Shown: one piece after another, positions 1 to 22,484 of the stretch | How positions within the stretch are numbered: the stretch's first letter is position 1 | How the letters are laid out: each line of letters opens with the position of its first letter | Virus record (IMG/VR): IMGVR_UViG_3300036770_004990 | Coordinates: 1 to 29,685 of that record | From: a virus | Direction: 5' to 3' (one strand) | Length of the DNA stretch: 29,685 nt | The notes under the pieces: model-generated | Told to the model about the DNA's origin: nothing | What the model saw: only the letters and a program-made list of their open reading frames with translations | Databases searched by the model: none | Position numbers and translations under genes: made by a program

Positions 1-408
1 ATTTGCTTCAGTAGTTCCAATTTTAACATACGACCAACTATTATTACCACCACCAAAATTATTTATTCGTATTGTACCTGTATCTCCGGTACATTCTAAT
101 AAAAATGCATTGAATGTAATTGCACCAAATGTTGTAGTAGTAGTTGTAGTAGTAGTTGTAGTTGTCGTAGTGGTAGTAGTAGTTGTAGGTGCAGCAGTAG
201 TCGTTGTTGTAGTTGTTGGTGCGGTAGTAGTCGTTGTTGTAGTTGCACCACCTACACTTCTTCCTCTAAACTCATCCATACCATGTGGTTTTGATGAAAT
301 ACCATATGCAATTGCAGCAGTATCCATATCAATCTGAGCAGTAGCTGTTATTCCTCTATCTGTATTAAAATCTCTAAATGATATTTCGCCGGTTGATGGA
401 AGTGCCAT
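1..408 (-). CDS. Tail fibre protein with poly-threonine linker (3' end missing)
   Basis: The minus frame from the ATG at 408-406 stays open to the window edge, giving 136 codons without a stop, so this is the N-terminal part of a longer protein. It begins MALPSTGEISFRDFNTDRG and continues through DEFRGRS near residues 45-51. This is the layout of short phage fibre N-termini in which a 'G.IS..D.N...G' opening is followed by a 'M.EFRG.S' segment. Residues 56-93 are almost pure threonine in three blocks of 7, 7 and 19 broken by AP and AAP. A folded domain then starts (FGAITFNAFLLECTGDTG). The start overlaps the stop of the upstream 1710-aa fibre gene as TAATG, so translation is probably coupled. 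I infer a second fibre or adhesin whose receptor-binding end lies outside the window. A start further upstream is excluded by the in-frame arrangement at the overlap. Confidence 0.8.
   Translation of the reverse strand, partial: MALPSTGEISFRDFNTDRGITATAQIDMDTAAIAYGISSKPHGMDEFRGRSVGGATTTTTTTAPTTTTTTTAAPTTTTTTTTTTTTTTTTTTTFGAITFNAFLLECTGDTGTIRINNFGGGNNSWSYVKIGTTEAN
130..243 (-). repeat. Threonine-codon tract encoding a (T)n-AP-(T)n linker
   Basis: Thirty-three Thr codons in runs of 7, 7 and 19 are separated by Ala-Pro and Ala-Ala-Pro. All four ACN codons are used, so the DNA is a degenerate triplet repeat and not a perfect microsatellite. At protein level it should be an extended, flexible spacer between the fibre's N-terminal attachment segment and its next folded domain. 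Confidence 0.85.
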
Positions 409-5613: not shown

Positions 5614-5778
5614 ATGAATAAATACACTACAATACAAATAAAAAAAGAAACCCACGAACTTCTACAACAATATTGTAAAGAACGTGGGTATAAATTAAGC
5701 GGATTGGTAGAATCTTTAATTATGCAAAGAATAACTCTTCCTAAAAATGTTTTGAAGGTTAAAACTTCACATGACTAA
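5614..5778 (+). CDS. Small ribbon-helix-helix (Arc/MetJ-like) DNA-binding protein
   Basis: This is the only plus-strand gene I accept. It has 54 codons plus TAA and begins MNKYTTIQIKKETHELL. The pattern is a short strand (YTTIQI), a helix (KKETHELLQQYCKERG), a turn (YKLS) and a second helix (GLVESLIMQRI), which is the ribbon-helix-helix fold of Arc, MetJ and many phage and plasmid repressors. A short Lys-rich tail follows. It is transcribed toward the recombination nuclease gene: the two genes are tail to tail and overlap by 20 nt. It is divergent from the fibre gene. The role is probably transcriptional regulation of itself and perhaps the fibre transcript. The fold is well supported by sequence pattern; the regulatory target is inference. 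Confidence 0.75.
   Translation: MNKYTTIQIKKETHELLQQYCKERGYKLSGLVESLIMQRITLPKNVLKVKTSHD
5635..5688 (-). terminator. Intrinsic terminator-like hairpin inside the antisense RHH gene
   Basis: Read on the minus strand, CCCACG (5688-5683) pairs with CGTGGG (5656-5651). Inside, CTT/AAG and TACAA/TTGTA extend the stem around the loop TATTG. The stem is followed directly by TTTCTTTTTTTATTTG, so the RNA would have a U-rich tail. It sits about 70 nt after the stop of the recombination nuclease gene, where that operon should end. The internal UU/UU mismatch weakens the stem somewhat. The same bases encode helix 1 of the plus-strand regulator. Confidence 0.6.
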
Positions 5779-8700
5779 ATCCTTCTACTTTTTTAATTTC
5801 GATTAAACCATCTACTACATCTCTCATAGAATCGATGTGTGATATAATCATGACAAAATCAAATTGTGTCTTTAAGTAAGTGAATAACATAAATAACGAT
5901 TGTAAATTCTCACTATCTAACGTTCCAAACCCTTCATCGATTACTAAGAAATTTGGACGAGGTAAGTTACATACGTTGATTAAAGCAACTCTAATTGCAA
6001 GTCCTGATATAAATCTCTCCATACCACTACACATCTCCAAAGACCACTTATTATCACCATAAACAAGGTAAGCATTGATGTTTTTACCATCCATCTCTAA
6101 TTGCATTCCGAACTCAACAATTTGTGCAAGGATGTTATTTACCTCACCTTCAATCATAGGTAATGCTTTTTCAATCAATTCATAAGAAACACCATCTTTA
6201 CTCAAAGAGTTCAAATAATACTCATATAATTTAGATTGTTCTTCTAATTCTTTAATCTCACTAATCTTTGCCTCAAGGGTTTCTTTTTGTGATTTAAGAG
6301 ACGAAACCTTACCATTTAAATCTAAAAGTTTTTTATTTGTCTTTGTAAAGTTTTTCTTAACCTCTTCTAATAAATCACGCTTACCTTTGATTTCTTCTCT
6401 AATTTCACCATTCTTTTTGATTTGTTCTTCATTTTGATGATACTCCTCAATAAGTTTAATTTGGTCTGCAATTTGTGTTTGAATACGAACTTCTTCGGTT
6501 TCTGATGCTGAAAGTTTGTTTATTAGAGTTGAAATTTCTCTATCAACTTTACCCTCTTTTTCTTTAGTTTGAACCAAATTATTCCAATCAGTTTCGTATG
6601 GAGTCAATTCGTTAATTTTGATTTCAGTAATATCATGTGTATGTGTTACTTGACTAATCTCTTCAAAAAGGTTTGCTAAACTCTCTTCAACATCTTTTTT
6701 AGATTCTAAAATACTTTTAGAGTTTTCCATACAAATATCACAATTTTCGTTATATTTGTGAGAATCTAAATGTTCTTTTTTATCTTTTAATGAATCTAAT
6801 TTTATATCTAATTTTTCTAATTCATGAGTTGCAGTGTTAAAATCTCTTCTAGCAAACTTCAATACTTCAATCTTATCTTCTAAATCTTCTTCATCAAATC
6901 CATCAATAATTTCCTCTAATTGTAGTTGTAATTCTTCCAATTTAGAAATTCTTTCTTGTATTGCAATTTTTGTATTTAAGATTTCAGTTTCCTTATCGGT
7001 AAGAATTTTTTTACGTTTTTCTAATTCATCAATACCAACTAAATCAGAATTTAATTTTACAATCTTTCCATTTAATCGTATCAAATCTTTATTTAGTCCA
7101 TCTTCATCATCCTTAATACCACCCAATTCAATCTCAACTAATTTGTATTCAGATTTGTTTTCTTTCAAATCGGTTTCAATTTGAGCAAGTTTAGAAGTAA
7201 AATCATCCGATTTAAATTTCTTAATTAGAGTTGCATTTTCTCTATTCTCATCTGATGCTAATTGGTATAATTTATCAAAAATATCCACACCGATGAATTG
7301 TGATAAAATCTCTTTACGTTCTGATTGTGATTTATCGATGAAGAGTGCGTTATTACCTTGTAAGGATAATGATGTTAAAACAAAATCTTCAAACTTACCT
7401 AAATACTTTTCAATATTTTTGTTAGTATCTCTACGTTGTTCTCCATTTAAAGATGTAATTACACCGGCATCTTCTTTCCAAAAGTTTACGTTTACCGAAA
7501 GGTTAGTTCCCTTTCTAGTCCACTTCGCACTTCTTTCAATAAAATAATCAACTCCATCAATCTCAAAATTAAACTTACAATAAAAGTTGTCTTTTTGATT
7601 ATTTAGAATGTTTTTTGATGAAGATGTACGAGATGTTTTATCAAAGATACAGAATGATAGAGCATCAAACAACGATGATTTACCACTTGCGTTTGGTGCA
7701 AAAATACCAATCACACCTCTTGCATCTTCGAACCTAACTTTATTACCCTCACCATAAGAAAACATATTACTGAACTCCAATGTCTTAGGAGTCCAAAGAA
7801 TATTCTCAGCTAAAGTAGAATCATCAATTCTTGAGTTTACCTCTTTATTTATATCTGAAATCTTATCTAAATCAGAATCTTCTAAAAGAAATTGTCTTTC
7901 TAAGTAATCTCTAATAAGTTGGTTTTGGAACGTTTCATCCTTTACATTACCAACGATATTTTTGTTTAGAGCAGAGTTACGTTTTAATTGACCAATCGTA
8001 TCAGTTCTTGTAACTGTAACCTCAGCAACATTAAATAATTGTTTTAATTCAGTAATACGAAGTTTCATATCAGATGCTTCGGTATTAGTAAATCGCAATC
8101 TTAAACGAGGATTTTTAGGTAATTTTGTTCCAACCTCATCATAGACCCATTGTGGTATAACTCCACCAACTACATCGATTGTAAGGAAACCATAATCGTT
8201 ATGTATGTGATGTTCGGTAAAAGTACGAGTAGGAACATCCCATATCAAATAACCATGATTCTCCAACATTTCGCCATGATTTTGTTGAATCATAGAACCC
8301 GCATATGCAACGTGTTCGTAACCTGTACCGAATGTTTGACGTTTATGAATATCACCCATCATAACCATATCAAATCCATCAAACATATCGACAGTAAATG
8401 AGTTTGAGGATACTACATATCCAATATCAGTTTGTGCTTTATTTACAGGGCCGTGGAAAAGACAGATTTTATTTTCTCCTTCAATATCCTTTGCCAAAGG
8501 CCAATTTTCTTTTTTATCCAATATAGAATAAACGACAAAAGTAAGATTGTGGTGGTTGTAAACACCAGTATCGCGAAGATAATGTACGCGAGGGTTATTA
8601 AGATTATCGACAATGGGCGTAAGAACATCTAATCTATGTGTGTTGTTTAGGTTACAATCGTGGTTTCCCGTGATTAAAAAAGTTTCGCGTAACTTAGAAC

Positions 8701-8914
8701 ATTCTGTTAAAAACCAACTTATCTCCTGTATTAATTCGGGTGACATTTCAGTTTTAGCATGAGCAATATCTCCTGCTAAATAAATAATAGAATCTTCAAT
8801 TTTATCATCTTCTACTTGTTTCAAAAACTTTTTGAATACCTCGCGATATTCTTTATGTCTTTGTAAGTTTCTAATGTGTAAATCTGCTAGGTGGTATATT
8901 TTGTTTATAACCAT
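5759..8914 (-). CDS. Fused Mre11-Rad50 type recombination nuclease (T4 gp47-gp46 equivalent in one chain)
   Basis: The 1051-aa product joins two proteins that are separate in T4. Residues 1-~340 are the gp47/SbcD/Mre11 phosphoesterase, with metal ligands in DLHIR (11-15), GDIAH (48-52), GNHD (83-86), an HGP near 154 and GDIHKR near 187. From ~375 the gp46/SbcC/Rad50 ATPase begins: P-loop APNASGKSS near 405, long heptad coiled coils, a zinc-hook CDIC near 724, the return coiled coil, the ABC signature CSGMERFISG near 960 and Walker B NFLVIDEGFGTLD near 990. All catalytic motifs are present, so it should be active. Such complexes process DNA ends for recombination-dependent replication and host DNA breakdown. 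The reading frame is continuous, with no intervening stop or restart. It follows the glycosyltransferase-like gene by 3 nt, in the operon led by the primase. Confidence 0.93.
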   Translation of the reverse strand: MVINKIYHLADLHIRNLQRHKEYREVFKKFLKQVEDDKIEDSIIYLAGDIAHAKTEMSPELIQEISWFLTECSKLRETFLITGNHDCNLNNTHRLDVLTPIVDNLNNPRVHYLRDTGVYNHHNLTFVVYSILDKKENWPLAKDIEGENKICLFHGPVNKAQTDIGYVVSSNSFTVDMFDGFDMVMMGDIHKRQTFGTGYEHVAYAGSMIQQNHGEMLENHGYLIWDVPTRTFTEHHIHNDYGFLTIDVVGGVIPQWVYDEVGTKLPKNPRLRLRFTNTEASDMKLRITELKQLFNVAEVTVTRTDTIGQLKRNSALNKNIVGNVKDETFQNQLIRDYLERQFLLEDSDLDKISDINKEVNSRIDDSTLAENILWTPKTLEFSNMFSYGEGNKVRFEDARGVIGIFAPNASGKSSLFDALSFCIFDKTSRTSSSKNILNNQKDNFYCKFNFEIDGVDYFIERSAKWTRKGTNLSVNVNFWKEDAGVITSLNGEQRRDTNKNIEKYLGKFEDFVLTSLSLQGNNALFIDKSQSERKEILSQFIGVDIFDKLYQLASDENRENATLIKKFKSDDFTSKLAQIETDLKENKSEYKLVEIELGGIKDDEDGLNKDLIRLNGKIVKLNSDLVGIDELEKRKKILTDKETEILNTKIAIQERISKLEELQLQLEEIIDGFDEEDLEDKIEVLKFARRDFNTATHELEKLDIKLDSLKDKKEHLDSHKYNENCDICMENSKSILESKKDVEESLANLFEEISQVTHTHDITEIKINELTPYETDWNNLVQTKEKEGKVDREISTLINKLSASETEEVRIQTQIADQIKLIEEYHQNEEQIKKNGEIREEIKGKRDLLEEVKKNFTKTNKKLLDLNGKVSSLKSQKETLEAKISEIKELEEQSKLYEYYLNSLSKDGVSYELIEKALPMIEGEVNNILAQIVEFGMQLEMDGKNINAYLVYGDNKWSLEMCSGMERFISGLAIRVALINVCNLPRPNFLVIDEGFGTLDSENLQSLFMLFTYLKTQFDFVMIISHIDSMRDVVDGLIEIKKVEGFSHVKF

Positions 8915-8917
8915 ATT

Positions 8918-10057
8918 TTATATTAAATTATGTTTTGGTCTTTCGAAATATTTATAGTTTGTTGATTTGAAATCAAATTTTATAGTTTCTAACAAACCAA
9001 AATTTCTTTCTATTTTTGATTCGTTCTTTATGTAATAGTCATGAATTTCGGAATATGACATTTTGTTTATAATATCTAAATTATTCATATATTGTTTTAG
9101 AATACTACCAACATCCATTTGAGGTGTTAAATCAAATAAATCATCTGCTAACCAAAATCCTATTTTTTGTAAATACTGATTTATATAACTACTTCCCAAT
9201 ATTAACGGAATATTTCTAGATATAAATGGATTCCACGACTTTTCACTTAAATGAATTAAATCACCCGGTAATACCATAGTTTCCAATATACAACTAAAAT
9301 ATGAAGTCATAGTAATTGGTAGTGGTGGTATTTCAACATTTACTGAACCAATCATACTACGTTCAATTGGAGTATCTAAAATGACCGGTAATTTTTGGTT
9401 TCTAAACTTTTGTAATTCTACACTAAGTTCTGAATCATCATATTGGGTACTAAATGCACTATACCCTAACCAAGATTCGGAATCTAATCCAATTTTATAA
9501 ACATATTTGAAAATTTTCAAACGTTCTTTTTTATCAACACCGATAATCATATTCATCTTTTTTTGACGAATATTAGTTTGAAAATTATGAACTACATATT
9601 TCAAATGTGGCCAATAATTTTGTAATGCTGCTCTATATCGATAATAGTTGCAATTGTGTTCATATTCATGTAAAAGTTCATATGGTCTTACAAAAAATTT
9701 ATTTGAAAAAAATGTATATCGCTCAGTATCTTTATATTCTAATGCATTATCATCATCGAATAAAATGAATTTACAATCATCGTATTTTATTGATAATTGT
9801 ATTAAAGTTTTTTCTAAATTACCATCATACTGATTAATATATCTAGCATCGAATATTACAATATCACCATATTTTGGATTTATTGTTTTTAATTTATTTA
9901 AAAAATTATCAACATATGGTGGTTCACCAATCCATTTGTGTTGTATATCATCTATATCATCAAATTGATGAAAAATATGAGGTTCTGTAATATTCAACAA
10001 ATCATACCAAGCAGTATATGAACCCTTACCTATGTGATGGGGTATTATGTGAATCAT
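8918..10057 (-). CDS. Glycosyltransferase-like protein of unknown substrate
   Basis: A 379-aa soluble protein with no signal peptide or membrane segment. Near residues 270-300, HLSEKSWNPFISRNIPLILGSS followed by YLQKIGFW resembles the C-terminal nucleotide-sugar-binding segment of fucosyltransferase-like (GT10-type) and related phage proteins, where '.EK.w.Pf....P.il.g....l...GF' is conserved. The N-terminal half (HIIPHHIGKGSYTAWYDLL; VIFDARYINQYDG) is alpha/beta but without a motif I recognise. Its start overlaps the primase stop by 4 nt, so it belongs to the primase/recombinase operon and not to the fibre genes. Possible targets are phage DNA bases, virion proteins or host surface glycans; the sequence does not decide. 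The family call is moderate, the substrate unknown. Confidence 0.55.
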   Translation of the reverse strand: MIHIIPHHIGKGSYTAWYDLLNITEPHIFHQFDDIDDIQHKWIGEPPYVDNFLNKLKTINPKYGDIVIFDARYINQYDGNLEKTLIQLSIKYDDCKFILFDDDNALEYKDTERYTFFSNKFFVRPYELLHEYEHNCNYYRYRAALQNYWPHLKYVVHNFQTNIRQKKMNMIIGVDKKERLKIFKYVYKIGLDSESWLGYSAFSTQYDDSELSVELQKFRNQKLPVILDTPIERSMIGSVNVEIPPLPITMTSYFSCILETMVLPGDLIHLSEKSWNPFISRNIPLILGSSYINQYLQKIGFWLADDLFDLTPQMDVGSILKQYMNNLDIINKMSYSEIHDYYIKNESKIERNFGLLETIKFDFKSTNYKYFERPKHNLI

Positions 10058-10989
10058 AATTGTTGTAATTTTTGGAACACAATATCACCATATTCCGTAG
10101 ATTTAACATCTTTTAATATTTTATTTATTTGTTGAAATCCCATTTCGGATGCATCTTTTTCAGATGGAATTACATTTTTAGTATCAATTCCTTGTTTCTG
10201 AAAATAAATTGTATAATGTAATGCTTGGTCTTGTGCATCACTATCTAATACGATATTAATTTTCTTAACCCCTCTTTGATATATACTATCCATTAATTTT
10301 TTTGGAATAAATTTACCTAAGATTGGAATAGCGTTTCGTTTAATTGATAATGCATCAAATGCACCTTCACAGACTGTAATTGGTTCGTTCCAATTTATTT
10401 GGTTTTCAAACATAATTACATTCTTTGAAACTGGTGGGTTTTTATATTTGTAAGGTTCATCTTCATAAACCGAACGTGCAATAAAATAATTTAATTTATT
10501 ATTTGAATCATACGATGGTATAATAACTCTTCCAGCATACAACCCACCTTTACAATATCCCATATTATATCGAATAATATCACTTTCAGTAATACCTCTA
10601 ACTTTTAGATAATGTTTTACTTTTTTGTAAAGAGGATTTAATCCTTTTGGAGTTTCGGTTAAAGATATAAATTCTGATGGTAATCGTAATTCAATCTCTA
10701 CATCTTCATTATTTGCAACTACATAATCATCTCCATATATGTCTAATATACGTTTTAATTTATGAGAATCTACTTGTAATTTTCGTAAAAGTGAGTATAT
10801 ACGTTTACCCTTAGAATCACAAACCCAACAGTGCCATTGTTGTGTATCTAAGTTTACTTGAAGTTTTTTCTTATGATGATGACAAAAAGGACAATAGTGA
10901 GCTTGTTCATTACCTTTTAGTGATGAGCCATGTCCTAACGTATCATCTAAGATACTAATAATTGTTAGTTTATCTGGTGTTGATAGCAT
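10054..10989 (-). CDS. DnaG-type DNA primase
   Basis: A 311-aa primase. A zinc ribbon lies near the N-terminus: C33-P-F-C36 and C54-W-V-C57, with CPFCHHHK and WHCWVC as its two halves. Residues ~130-200 (RGITESDIIRYNMGYCKGG, then RVIIPSYDSNNKLNYFIARS) match the DnaG catalytic core. The TOPRIM acidic residues appear in ITVCEGAFDALS near 217 and IVLDSDAQDQA near 260. There is no helicase fused to the C-terminus and no room for the long helicase-binding domain of bacterial DnaG, so it is a compact phage version that makes RNA primers for lagging-strand synthesis. Two TTTG-N20-TAnnTTTG promoters lie just upstream. No clear Shine-Dalgarno precedes the ATG, in contrast to the structural genes. Confidence 0.88.
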   Translation of the reverse strand: MLSTPDKLTIISILDDTLGHGSSLKGNEQAHYCPFCHHHKKKLQVNLDTQQWHCWVCDSKGKRIYSLLRKLQVDSHKLKRILDIYGDDYVVANNEDVEIELRLPSEFISLTETPKGLNPLYKKVKHYLKVRGITESDIIRYNMGYCKGGLYAGRVIIPSYDSNNKLNYFIARSVYEDEPYKYKNPPVSKNVIMFENQINWNEPITVCEGAFDALSIKRNAIPILGKFIPKKLMDSIYQRGVKKINIVLDSDAQDQALHYTIYFQKQGIDTKNVIPSEKDASEMGFQQINKILKDVKSTEYGDIVFQKLQQL

Positions 10990-11071: not shown

Positions 11072-11103
11072 CAAAGATACGAAAAATTTATGAATTTTCC
11101 AAA
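11072..11103 (-). promoter_or_regulatory. Bacteroidota-type promoter for the primase operon (distal)
   Basis: A second copy 63 nt upstream of the first: TTTG (11103-11100), 20-nt spacer, TATCTTTG (11079-11072). Both copies share TTTGGAAA at the upstream end and TTTCGTAT before the -7 TTTG (here TTTTTCGTAT). The upstream element lies inside the last codons of the GIY-YIG gene. Confidence 0.6.
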
Positions 11104-11534
11104 TCTATTTCATCTAAATCTCTACGGAAAAATTTACCCAAAAGATTATCATTTAGGGCATTTTCATCTGCTAATACATTATGGGCAAATTGTTCTTGTA
11201 ATTCATAATAAGTTAGGGATTTTTTGGATTTACAAAATCTTAGGATTTCTAACTTAATTCTATCTCCACTCCATGCTTTTACGATTGCATTTGAAGATTG
11301 ATATTTTTTCCAATCGGATTCCTTAGTAACCCATTCCCAATGCTTACTACGTTTATCGGTTAGGGCTGCGATTTCCTTTTTACCGAATTTTCTTTTTGTG
11401 ATGGATAATACATTTTTCTTACCAATATAATATTGACCAGTTTCACCATTAGTTATTTTGTAAATAAAACCGATTGTATTTTCAGGCATATCTGAAAGTT
11501 CGGTTATAAATTGTCCTCTATATGTCCAACTCAT
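11088..11534 (-). CDS. GIY-YIG endonuclease-like protein
   Basis: The N-terminal core reads IGFIYKITNGETGQYYIGKK, which is the GIY...YIG catalytic strand pair with FIY in place of GIY, as in many phage members. A basic stretch (TKRKFGKKE) and KESDWKKYQSS follow, then the conserved Glu in LTYYELQEQFAHNVL. This matches the small stand-alone GIY-YIG proteins of T4-like phages, often annotated as Seg-like homing endonucleases. No extra DNA-binding domain (NUMOD or zinc finger) is visible, so homing is not proven. I chose the ATG at 11534 (MSWTYRGQFITEL) because relatives start with a similar W-Y segment. An in-frame ATG at 11555 adds seven residues and has a weak GGAAAG upstream. Either start overlaps the 3' end of the sulfotransferase gene. 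Confidence 0.75.
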   Translation of the reverse strand: MSWTYRGQFITELSDMPENTIGFIYKITNGETGQYYIGKKNVLSITKRKFGKKEIAALTDKRSKHWEWVTKESDWKKYQSSNAIVKAWSGDRIKLEILRFCKSKKSLTYYELQEQFAHNVLADENALNDNLLGKFFRRDLDEIDLENS

Positions 11535-12090
11535 AGTTAAAAAATTTGAAATCATTTTTATATCTTTCCAATACCCATTCCTTGCACCAAATATCTTTAT
11601 ATAAGATTTTATAATAATCTACATCATTTAAGTGCGGATGTCTATTAAATATTGGATTACGATTTTCGTTAGGAAGTTCTTGTATTGGTATTTTAAGTGT
11701 ATTGAGTATGTAATTTACATCGGTTATATAATTTTCATATTTACCAATATAATTTACAATTCTACCCTCTTTACTATTATGATTTATAAAATAAGTTTGT
11801 GGGAAATACCAAACATCGATAGGTGAAATTGTTTCTAAAAAGTTTTTAAAATTTGTAGCGTTTCCACTTCTCACATTATGTTGATATGCGGATGCTATTC
11901 TTGTAAATGGATTTCTTACAAATGTAAAAATAAAATAATTCGAAACATTACCAAAATTTCCCAAATCACCATGTGTTATAATCTCTTCACTATTATCTAC
12001 ATTTAAAAGTAGTTTAGTTAAAGAAGTTCCACCAGTTTTTGGAATATGTAAATAACCCCATTTTTTTGAATGGTTTATTATTAAAGACAA
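11518..12090 (-). CDS. Sulfotransferase-family protein
   Basis: A 190-aa protein with both PAPS-binding signatures of the sulfotransferase superfamily (Sulfotransfer_2-like). The 5'-phosphosulfate loop is IPKTGGTSL (residues 16-24). The 3'-phosphate motif is FTFVRNPFTRIASAY (56-70), with Arg60 and Ser68 in the expected places. It has no membrane anchor, so it should act in the cytoplasm. It would move sulfate from PAPS to a hydroxyl or amine of a glycan or other acceptor. At 190 aa it is short for the family but has the complete core. It sits between two tiny structural-looking genes and the GIY-YIG gene. The acceptor is unknown; a phage or host surface carbohydrate is possible. Family assignment is strong, function open. 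Confidence 0.85.
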   Translation of the reverse strand: MSLIINHSKKWGYLHIPKTGGTSLTKLLLNVDNSEEIITHGDLGNFGNVSNYFIFTFVRNPFTRIASAYQHNVRSGNATNFKNFLETISPIDVWYFPQTYFINHNSKEGRIVNYIGKYENYITDVNYILNTLKIPIQELPNENRNPIFNRHPHLNDVDYYKILYKDIWCKEWVLERYKNDFKFFNYELDI

Positions 12091-20720: not shown

Positions 20721-22484
20721 CTACCTTATATTTTGGTATTGATTATCGTTAGTATCCATATAGTTTCCACCATATCCATAGTCTCTAAAATTATTTGCAG
20801 TTTCTCCACCTGAACTTCCACCACTACTTCCTCCATATGATACGGTCGGTTGATAATTTGTAGGAGCTCCACAATCACCAACTTTAGTAACTGTCCAATT
20901 TGGTCCACCGACCGTTATAGTTCCTTCGGCAGCACATAATGTAACGGAACGACCTGGTTCTAATGATGGACCAGTTTGTGGTTGACCTGCTGAATTTTTA
21001 TATTGGAATGAATTTGTAAATCCACTTCCGTATGATGCACCATTATAGTTTTGATTTTGATTTGCTTCATGCGAACCATTATAAATTGTATATGAGAATA
21101 ATTTTAATTCCACTTTTTGTTTTGGTACTTCTCTTACATCTCCACTAAATTCAGGTGTACCTTGATATGTGATAGTTAATGCATCATATTCTCTACCAAA
21201 TACATTTGTAGGTTTTTTACCATCTTTATCAGTAAATGTTATACCACCATTATCTGACCAAACATAGAATGTTTTAGTTGTTGTTTGTGGTTTATCCGCA
21301 TATCTACAAGAACCATCATCCTCTGTTGCGTTTGGATTGTAGTTTAGTGAATTCGGGTCCATACATCCTCTAACCTTTTGAATTGGGTTTGCATCTTGTA
21401 TAGGTCTATAAACACAACTACCATCATTCTCTACTGCAAGAGGGTTATAATTTAATGCATTAGGGTCAGTACAACCTCTAACTACACCTTGTCTATTTCC
21501 AATTTCAGTTGAAACGTTTTGATTGTTACTAAGAATTGATTTTAATATTTGTTTAGTTTCATCTAATGTAATTTGTTCGTCTTTAGAAAGTATATTATCT
21601 TCTTGAATATTTCTTTTTGGTAAATAATATTCGATAATTTCTATCAAAGATTGTAATATCGTTTGTTTAATTCTTTCGATTGATAATTCAACTGGCATTG
21701 GTGATGATAATGGTTTACCATAAGTTACTGATTTTATTGACCAATCCCTATTTTGAATATAATATTTTGTACTTTCAACTAATTTAGTTTTTATTACATT
21801 TATAAATTCTTCCCAATTTATAATATTAAATTCTTTTTGTATAAGTTTTACATAAGTTTCACCTTGCTGGATTGTTCCCTTTTGTGAAACAAACTTTTGT
21901 AAGATATTTTCTACTTTAAGACTTTCAATAAAAGGTTCTATGAAATAAACAGTATCATCTCTAAACTCACCTTCTTTTAAAAAAATATTTACACGAGTAT
22001 CTAAATCATCAATTACTTTACCATCTTTATCTTTTAAAGGTAAGACACGAATTTCAGTACGAGATGGTGAAATTTCATGTATCCATAACTTATCTTTATC
22101 TACACTCGCAGAACCTGCTCTTCTATTCAAAAGTGTAGTTTGAGTTTTGAATATACCATTTGCATATCCTGCATCTCTAACTAACTTTTCAGTATCTATT
22201 ATATATTCTTTAGCACCATTTGTTTTTTTGTTAGATTTATTTTCACTAAAAATAAAATATTTTGAAATATTTACATCGTCCAAAAATATGTATCTAACTT
22301 TATCTCCACTTTCACCTTGTGGCAATACATTATCACTTGCATCATATAATACAAATTCAATAGTATCTGCAGTTCCAAGTCCAAAGTAGGATTTTGCAAC
22401 TTCTTGTTCAAAAATTGCTCTATCTTTACTATCAACTTTGTAGCCCTTTTTATCAACTACTTCTTTAAATTGAGTTATTGCCAT
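20721..22484 (-). CDS. Baseplate-associated protein with two GC-DP cysteine repeats
   Basis: A 587-aa protein. Residues 1-~300 are mixed alpha/beta (AKSYFGLGTADTIEFVLYD; DKLWIHEISPSRTEIRVLPL) and include a helical stretch of ~200-300; I know no named family. Residues 337-357 and 373-393 are two copies of GC-x-DPN-x-LNYNP-x-A-x(3)-DGSC, 36 residues apart, each with two Cys and an acidic loop. This motif is known from secreted proteins of aquatic Bacteroidota, often in tandem before a sorting signal. A beta domain (~400-560) and a Gly/Ser/Tyr/Asn-rich tail follow. Its start overlaps the coiled-coil gene by 10 nt. Context suggests a baseplate or tail-tip protein; the repeats may be disulfide- or Ca-stabilised spacers, which is inference. 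Confidence 0.7.
   Translation of the reverse strand: MAITQFKEVVDKKGYKVDSKDRAIFEQEVAKSYFGLGTADTIEFVLYDASDNVLPQGESGDKVRYIFLDDVNISKYFIFSENKSNKKTNGAKEYIIDTEKLVRDAGYANGIFKTQTTLLNRRAGSASVDKDKLWIHEISPSRTEIRVLPLKDKDGKVIDDLDTRVNIFLKEGEFRDDTVYFIEPFIESLKVENILQKFVSQKGTIQQGETYVKLIQKEFNIINWEEFINVIKTKLVESTKYYIQNRDWSIKSVTYGKPLSSPMPVELSIERIKQTILQSLIEIIEYYLPKRNIQEDNILSKDEQITLDETKQILKSILSNNQNVSTEIGNRQGVVRGCTDPNALNYNPLAVENDGSCVYRPIQDANPIQKVRGCMDPNSLNYNPNATEDDGSCRYADKPQTTTKTFYVWSDNGGITFTDKDGKKPTNVFGREYDALTITYQGTPEFSGDVREVPKQKVELKLFSYTIYNGSHEANQNQNYNGASYGSGFTNSFQYKNSAGQPQTGPSLEPGRSVTLCAAEGTITVGGPNWTVTKVGDCGAPTNYQPTVSYGGSSGGSSGGETANNFRDYGYGGNYMDTNDNQYQNIR

Follow-up and report, generated by a model that had tools for sequence, protein, structure and literature searches.

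Fusion of Mre11 and Rad50 in a single polypeptide was described by Yoshida et al. (2011; PMC3175470) for R555 of Mimivirus and for other proteins, including one from a phage and others from aquatic-virus metagenomes, so that the joining of the two proteins, which the first-pass annotation of the DNA analysed here had taken to be unusual, is of a kind already published. The same work inferred that R555-like genes are present in aquatic phages, found that most such fusions keep the C-terminal Rad50-binding region of Mre11 together with a short linker, and noted that R555 itself has GDxxH, as well as Asp242 in place of His206 of P. furiosus (PMC3175470). The Rad50-binding domain is placed behind a flexible linker and holds the complex together after ATP hydrolysis (review, PMC10418313). 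We show here that a viral locus belongs to this kind of fusion and that its family is a new, well-populated phage branch.

The window (the whole stretch of viral DNA that was analysed) is a 29.7 kb fragment in which positions 5759-8914 of the minus strand form one ATG-to-stop frame of 1051 aa, with Mre11 first and Rad50 second. Its parts are the following:

5759..8914, minus strand: whole fused gene, Mre11(SbcD)-Rad50(SbcC) single polypeptide of 1051 aa (ORF; Pfam and PHROG matches; kept in 100 complete IMG/VR relatives)
7997..8914, minus strand: residues 1-306, calcineurin-like nuclease domain of Mre11 with its capping domain (AlphaFold model against SbcD/Mre11 chains, Z 24; profile matches to PDB Mre11)
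8759..8773, minus strand: residues 48-52, motif II GDIAH, in which the last Asp of GDxxD is His (sequence comparison; also in Mimivirus R555)
8345..8356, minus strand: residues 187-190, motif V GDIH, in which the first His of GHxH, at the P. furiosus His206 position, is Asp (sequence comparison; compare R555 Asp242)
7937..7996, minus strand: residues 307-326, flexible hinge from the capping domain to the Rad50-binding helices (pLDDT below 50 at 307-322; length variable)
7835..7936, minus strand: residues 327-360, Rad50-binding helix-loop-helix, most likely retained (both models have helices at 327-341 and at 346-360; inside the alignments to SbcD 7yzo_B and 6s85_B)
7796..7834, minus strand: residues 361-373, fusion linker of about 13 residues, low in confidence and variable (models, alignment; no constrained synonymous sites)
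7286..7795, minus strand: residues 374-543, Rad50 N-lobe with the P-loop APNASGKS at 406-413 (Pfam, PHROG, structure match)
6203..7285, minus strand: residues 544-904, coiled coils and CDIC zinc hook at 725-728, nt 6731-6742 (long helices in the model)
5762..6202, minus strand: residues 905-1051, Rad50 C-lobe with SGME at 963-966, Walker B/D-loop FLVIDEGFGTLD and H-loop SH (conserved motifs, structure match)

Comparison of the protein with the PHROG models gave a match of phrog_100 (SbcD-like) to residues 4-363 (E 4e-30) and of phrog_77 (SbcC-like) to residues 295-1050 (E 5e-57), and Pfam AAA_23 exceeded its own cut-off; taken together, these results put the assignment to Mre11 and Rad50 far beyond chance. 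Sequence and profile searches of the PDB retrieved solved Rad50, SbcC and Mre11 chains, and the AlphaFold model matched solved chains of both halves with Z of 23-24, which bears out the earlier proposal of an Mre11-Rad50 fusion in one frame. We consider, with a probability of about 0.88, that this protein is an Mre11-Rad50 complex joined covalently, of the class of Mimivirus R555, and that a large family of tailed aquatic phages has it as its only Mre11 and only Rad50.

Searches of IMG/VR by tblastn and pattern scans yielded hundreds of relatives. The frame is uninterrupted in all 100 complete relatives on hand (48-94% identity), a result that for practical purposes excludes a missed stop or an assembly error, and these relatives, together with Microcystis phage Mel-JY01, are without exception fused, making the fusion a conserved trait of the clade. 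That an assembly or sequencing artefact joined two separate genes through a missed stop or frameshift is accordingly a reading to which we assign almost no probability and which we rejected: the frame is open in the independent metagenome assemblies of these 100 complete loci, it is carried by cultured phages too, and both synonymous and protein conservation are normal across the junction. Scanning with the Rad50 half alone returned fused loci in 80 cases out of 80, some of them on contigs already counted, and in four (L148, L151, L160 and L203) the contig ends inside the Mre11 half, still in frame. With the whole protein, a family profile and the Rad50 half alone, we searched IMG/VR for relatives that have two separate genes at this place, and found none. 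None of 45 pattern matches in bacterial genomes encodes a relative, and on plasmids the matches were confined to the Rad50 half and carried annotations as separate SbcC-like or AAA proteins. Among cultured phages in GenBank, the fusion is carried by Mel-JY01, Tenacibaculum pT24, PTm1 and PTm5, Chryseobacterium MA9V-1 and MA9V-2, and Sphingomonas PAU. Unrooted trees of 17 Mre11 and 16 Rad50 rows, a small sample with long branches that does not include R555, placed the fused proteins of phages together to the same side of one branch (95/96 in the Mre11 tree, 83/78 in the Rad50 tree). Examination of the records of eight relatives (164-289 kb) identified the fused gene as the sole SbcD-like and sole full SbcC-like match in each, and a phage RecA in seven of them.

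One homologue is interrupted. At 6500-7640 of the locus L082, taken from the 484 kb phage LR756508.1, about 1 kb breaks the fused gene just after GDIHKRQ and holds a 305-aa ORF (6671-7588) whose N-terminus is rich in Cys and which has a TnsA-like endonuclease domain (PF08722). This interruption resembles an inserted mobile element, for example an intron; Rfam identified no intron in it.

The AlphaFold model of the Mre11 half (mean pLDDT 85.0, pTM 0.77) presents the calcineurin-like metallophosphoesterase fold with its capping domain, superimposing on SbcD/Mre11 chains with Z 24 and rmsd 3.1-3.6 (6s6v_A, Z 24.4, rmsd 3.1) and, when the helices that follow are included, on E. coli SbcD (7yzo_B) with Z 23.9 and rmsd 4.7. 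The first-pass annotation had credited this half with all five phosphoesterase motifs, and all five can indeed be located (DLH 11-13, GDIAH 48-52, GNHD 83-86, HG 154-155 and GDIH 187-190), but only DxH, GNHD and the His of motif IV are canonical, motif II being GDxxH instead of GDxxD and motif V GDxH instead of GHxH. Both departures are fixed in the close family of the window protein, as are the Ala of the P-loop and SGME described below. GDxxH is also present in the separate Mre11 of herelleviruses, while GDxH occurs in 10 of the 11 fused proteins under comparison and is absent from every separate protein whose motif was found. As His206 of P. furiosus is among the residues reported to be involved in nuclease activity (PMC3175470), the Asp of motif V could lower or alter that activity, and one may envisage a protein that acts chiefly as an ATPase tethering DNA, its phosphoesterase activity being reduced or retuned and its fused Mre11 part serving mostly as the platform for the dimer and for DNA ends. 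We regard this as improbable, although the replacement runs throughout the close family, because Asp is a good metal ligand and because D11, H13, D49, N84, H85, H154 and H190 do not vary across 60 sequences, implying that catalysis is under selection. From this invariance of the other catalytic residues, an active nuclease is to be expected of the fused protein.

Between the two halves the first-pass annotation had placed a linker at residues 340-375 that would replace the Rad50-binding helices of Mre11. Our results do not support this view: both models predict helices at 327-341 and 346-360, where SbcD has them, residues Q330, L333, I334, Y337 and N360 of this region are conserved among the relatives, and what remains for a linker is only about 13 residues. 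Alignments of the modelled Mre11 half to SbcD in its endonuclease and cutting states span these helices (4..365 against 1..386 of 7yzo_B; 4..372 against 1..395 of 6s85_B, rmsd 5.0), so that in the models the Rad50-binding helices are most likely retained, which fits the fusion analysis of 2011 (PMC3175470) and the review of the complex (PMC10418313). A sequence alignment of the Thermotoga Mre11 helix region to 330-348 had a meaningless score and was dropped as evidence. The relative L045 (6001-8991) lacks 18 residues exactly in the hinge that precedes the helices, being a natural hinge-shortened variant.

The low confidence and the variability of segment 361-373, and the invariance of Met384, would suit a polypeptide that is processed, or an internal start giving free Rad50, with a working enzyme in two parts as in T4. 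At the junction, however, none of the in-frame starts is preceded by a conserved ribosome-binding site, synonymous variation does not dip there and conservation is ordinary, and Met384 lies just past the first Rad50 strand, which begins at about residue 374 in the AlphaFold model, so that a start at that position would cut the fold. With neither a ribosome-binding-site nor a synonymous-variation signal at the junction, we rejected a separately made Rad50 and hold a two-part enzyme of this sort to be very unlikely.

The model of the full chain has a low pTM (0.39; mean pLDDT 73.8), and within it residues 374-1051 match E. coli SbcC (7yzo_D) with Z 23.4 and rmsd 3.8 over 347 aligned residues. 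The bipartite ABC head, with Walker A and B, signature and D- and H-loops, is built around a coiled coil with a CxxC hook, and its motifs are conserved, with IDEG at 992-995, SH at 1025-1026 and both Cys of CDIC invariant in 49 sequences. The P-loop, CxxC hook, ABC signature and Walker B named for this half by the first-pass annotation were thus all located, the signature being SGME and not SGGE/SGGQ, and the P-loop starts with Ala.

Taking the fused Mre11-Rad50 complex as the preferred reading, its likely role, by analogy with T4 gp46/47, which act in recombination-dependent replication (PMC3175470), is end processing for that form of replication. Two fused chains would pair by contacts of the Mre11 core, of the Rad50 heads with ATP bound and of the zinc hook, giving a 2:2 architecture as in SbcCD, with the helix-loop-helix of each chain packing on its own coiled-coil base. 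The Rad50 heads would bind ATP and DNA ends, ATP binding would clamp the DNA, and hydrolysis would free the Mre11 dimer to cut after swinging about its unchanged hinge (307-326), leaving a 3' single strand that the phage RecA would take up for the repair of breaks and for recombination-dependent replication. The join comes beyond the flexible hinge and behind the helices by which Mre11 is in any case anchored to Rad50, so that the moving part would stay as it was; this argues against a large change in gating, and the fusion probably leaves the ATP gating step unchanged. Fusion would fix a 1:1 supply and keep the partners together, the tether mainly securing stoichiometry and assembly.

The surroundings of the fused gene in the window comprise the following:

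10054..10989, minus strand: DnaG-type primase, conserved neighbour (phrog_47, E 3e-49)
8918-10057, minus strand: 379-aa ORF between the primase and the fused gene (no Pfam or PHROG match)
11088-11555, minus strand: SegE-like GIY-YIG endonuclease, close to the primase (74 of 110 loci have it)
11518-12090, minus strand: sulfotransferase-family protein (PF03567) starting at TTG, unusual as cargo of a phage
20721-22484, minus strand: ORF in the structural region, carrying two repeated motifs of the NALNYNP/NSLNYNP...DDGSC type (no PHROG match)
1-408, minus strand: partial ORF with long polythreonine tracts

Among the loci with enough flank, the primase lies upstream of the fused gene in 106 of 110, at a median gap of about 50 bp, and a primase is placed in this way in the GOS scaffolds too (PMC3175470). 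The 379-aa ORF is missing in the relative L002 (91% identical), where the primase abuts the fused gene, and is present in L007 at 65% identity; judged from these sequences it appears to be an optional cargo gene. The SegE-like gene may be a fixed part of the neighbourhood and not a mobile element. The polythreonine ORF adjoins a 1710-aa ORF with an S74 chaperone of endosialidase at its end.

The aquatic phages that carry R555-like genes, inferred in 2011 from short metagenome reads, are now identified; their loci are available in full, on contigs of genome size and with the primase as a stable neighbour. As a ready-made single chain, the protein lends itself to structural and single-molecule studies of Mre11-Rad50, and its natural His-to-Asp change in the metal site is open to direct testing.

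Among described systems, R555 and the fusions of other giant viruses (Tupanvirus, Klosneuvirus, Harvfovirus and Tetraselmis virus 1) have the domain order of the window protein in one chain, and such fusions are its top viral structure matches in BFVD (23-34% identity, Tupanvirus 34%). R555 has likewise a short linker behind a Mre11 C-terminal region of normal length, and both of its substitutions are shared with the window protein and invariant in the window family. The giant-virus proteins are longer, however, at about 1350-1400 aa against 1051 aa, and the tailed-phage context with an adjoining DnaG-type primase sets the window fusion apart. It is conceivable, though we hold it only tentatively and think it rather unlikely, that both families descend from one ancestral fusion moved between tailed phages and eukaryotic giant viruses, and that the His-to-Asp change and the tether define a distinct functional class of Mre11-Rad50 enzyme. 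Nearer at hand, Mel-JY01 (190 kb; PP395634) encodes a fused protein (WWT39521.1), annotated only as an AAA domain protein, with 38% identity over the whole length and the same gene order, including the GIY-YIG and primase genes. The jumbo-phage fusions of Tenacibaculum pT24/PTm1, Chryseobacterium MA9V-1 and Sphingomonas PAU (gp288), annotated as DNA repair or metallo-phosphoesterase proteins, also carry Mre11 and then Rad50 in one chain (1301-1326 aa) and group with the window family in the Mre11 tree mentioned above, but they are very divergent and have different neighbours, PAU keeping GHIH. T4 gp47/gp46, the SbcD/SbcC of Herelleviridae and E. coli SbcCD share with the fusion the folds, the motif set and the presumed function, whereas they are encoded by two genes, as had been stated for T4, and keep GHxH. 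Two small ORFs lie between the gp47 and gp46 genes of T4; in herelleviruses the separate Mre11, Rad50 and primase genes are close together, an arrangement that is plausible as the state before fusion.
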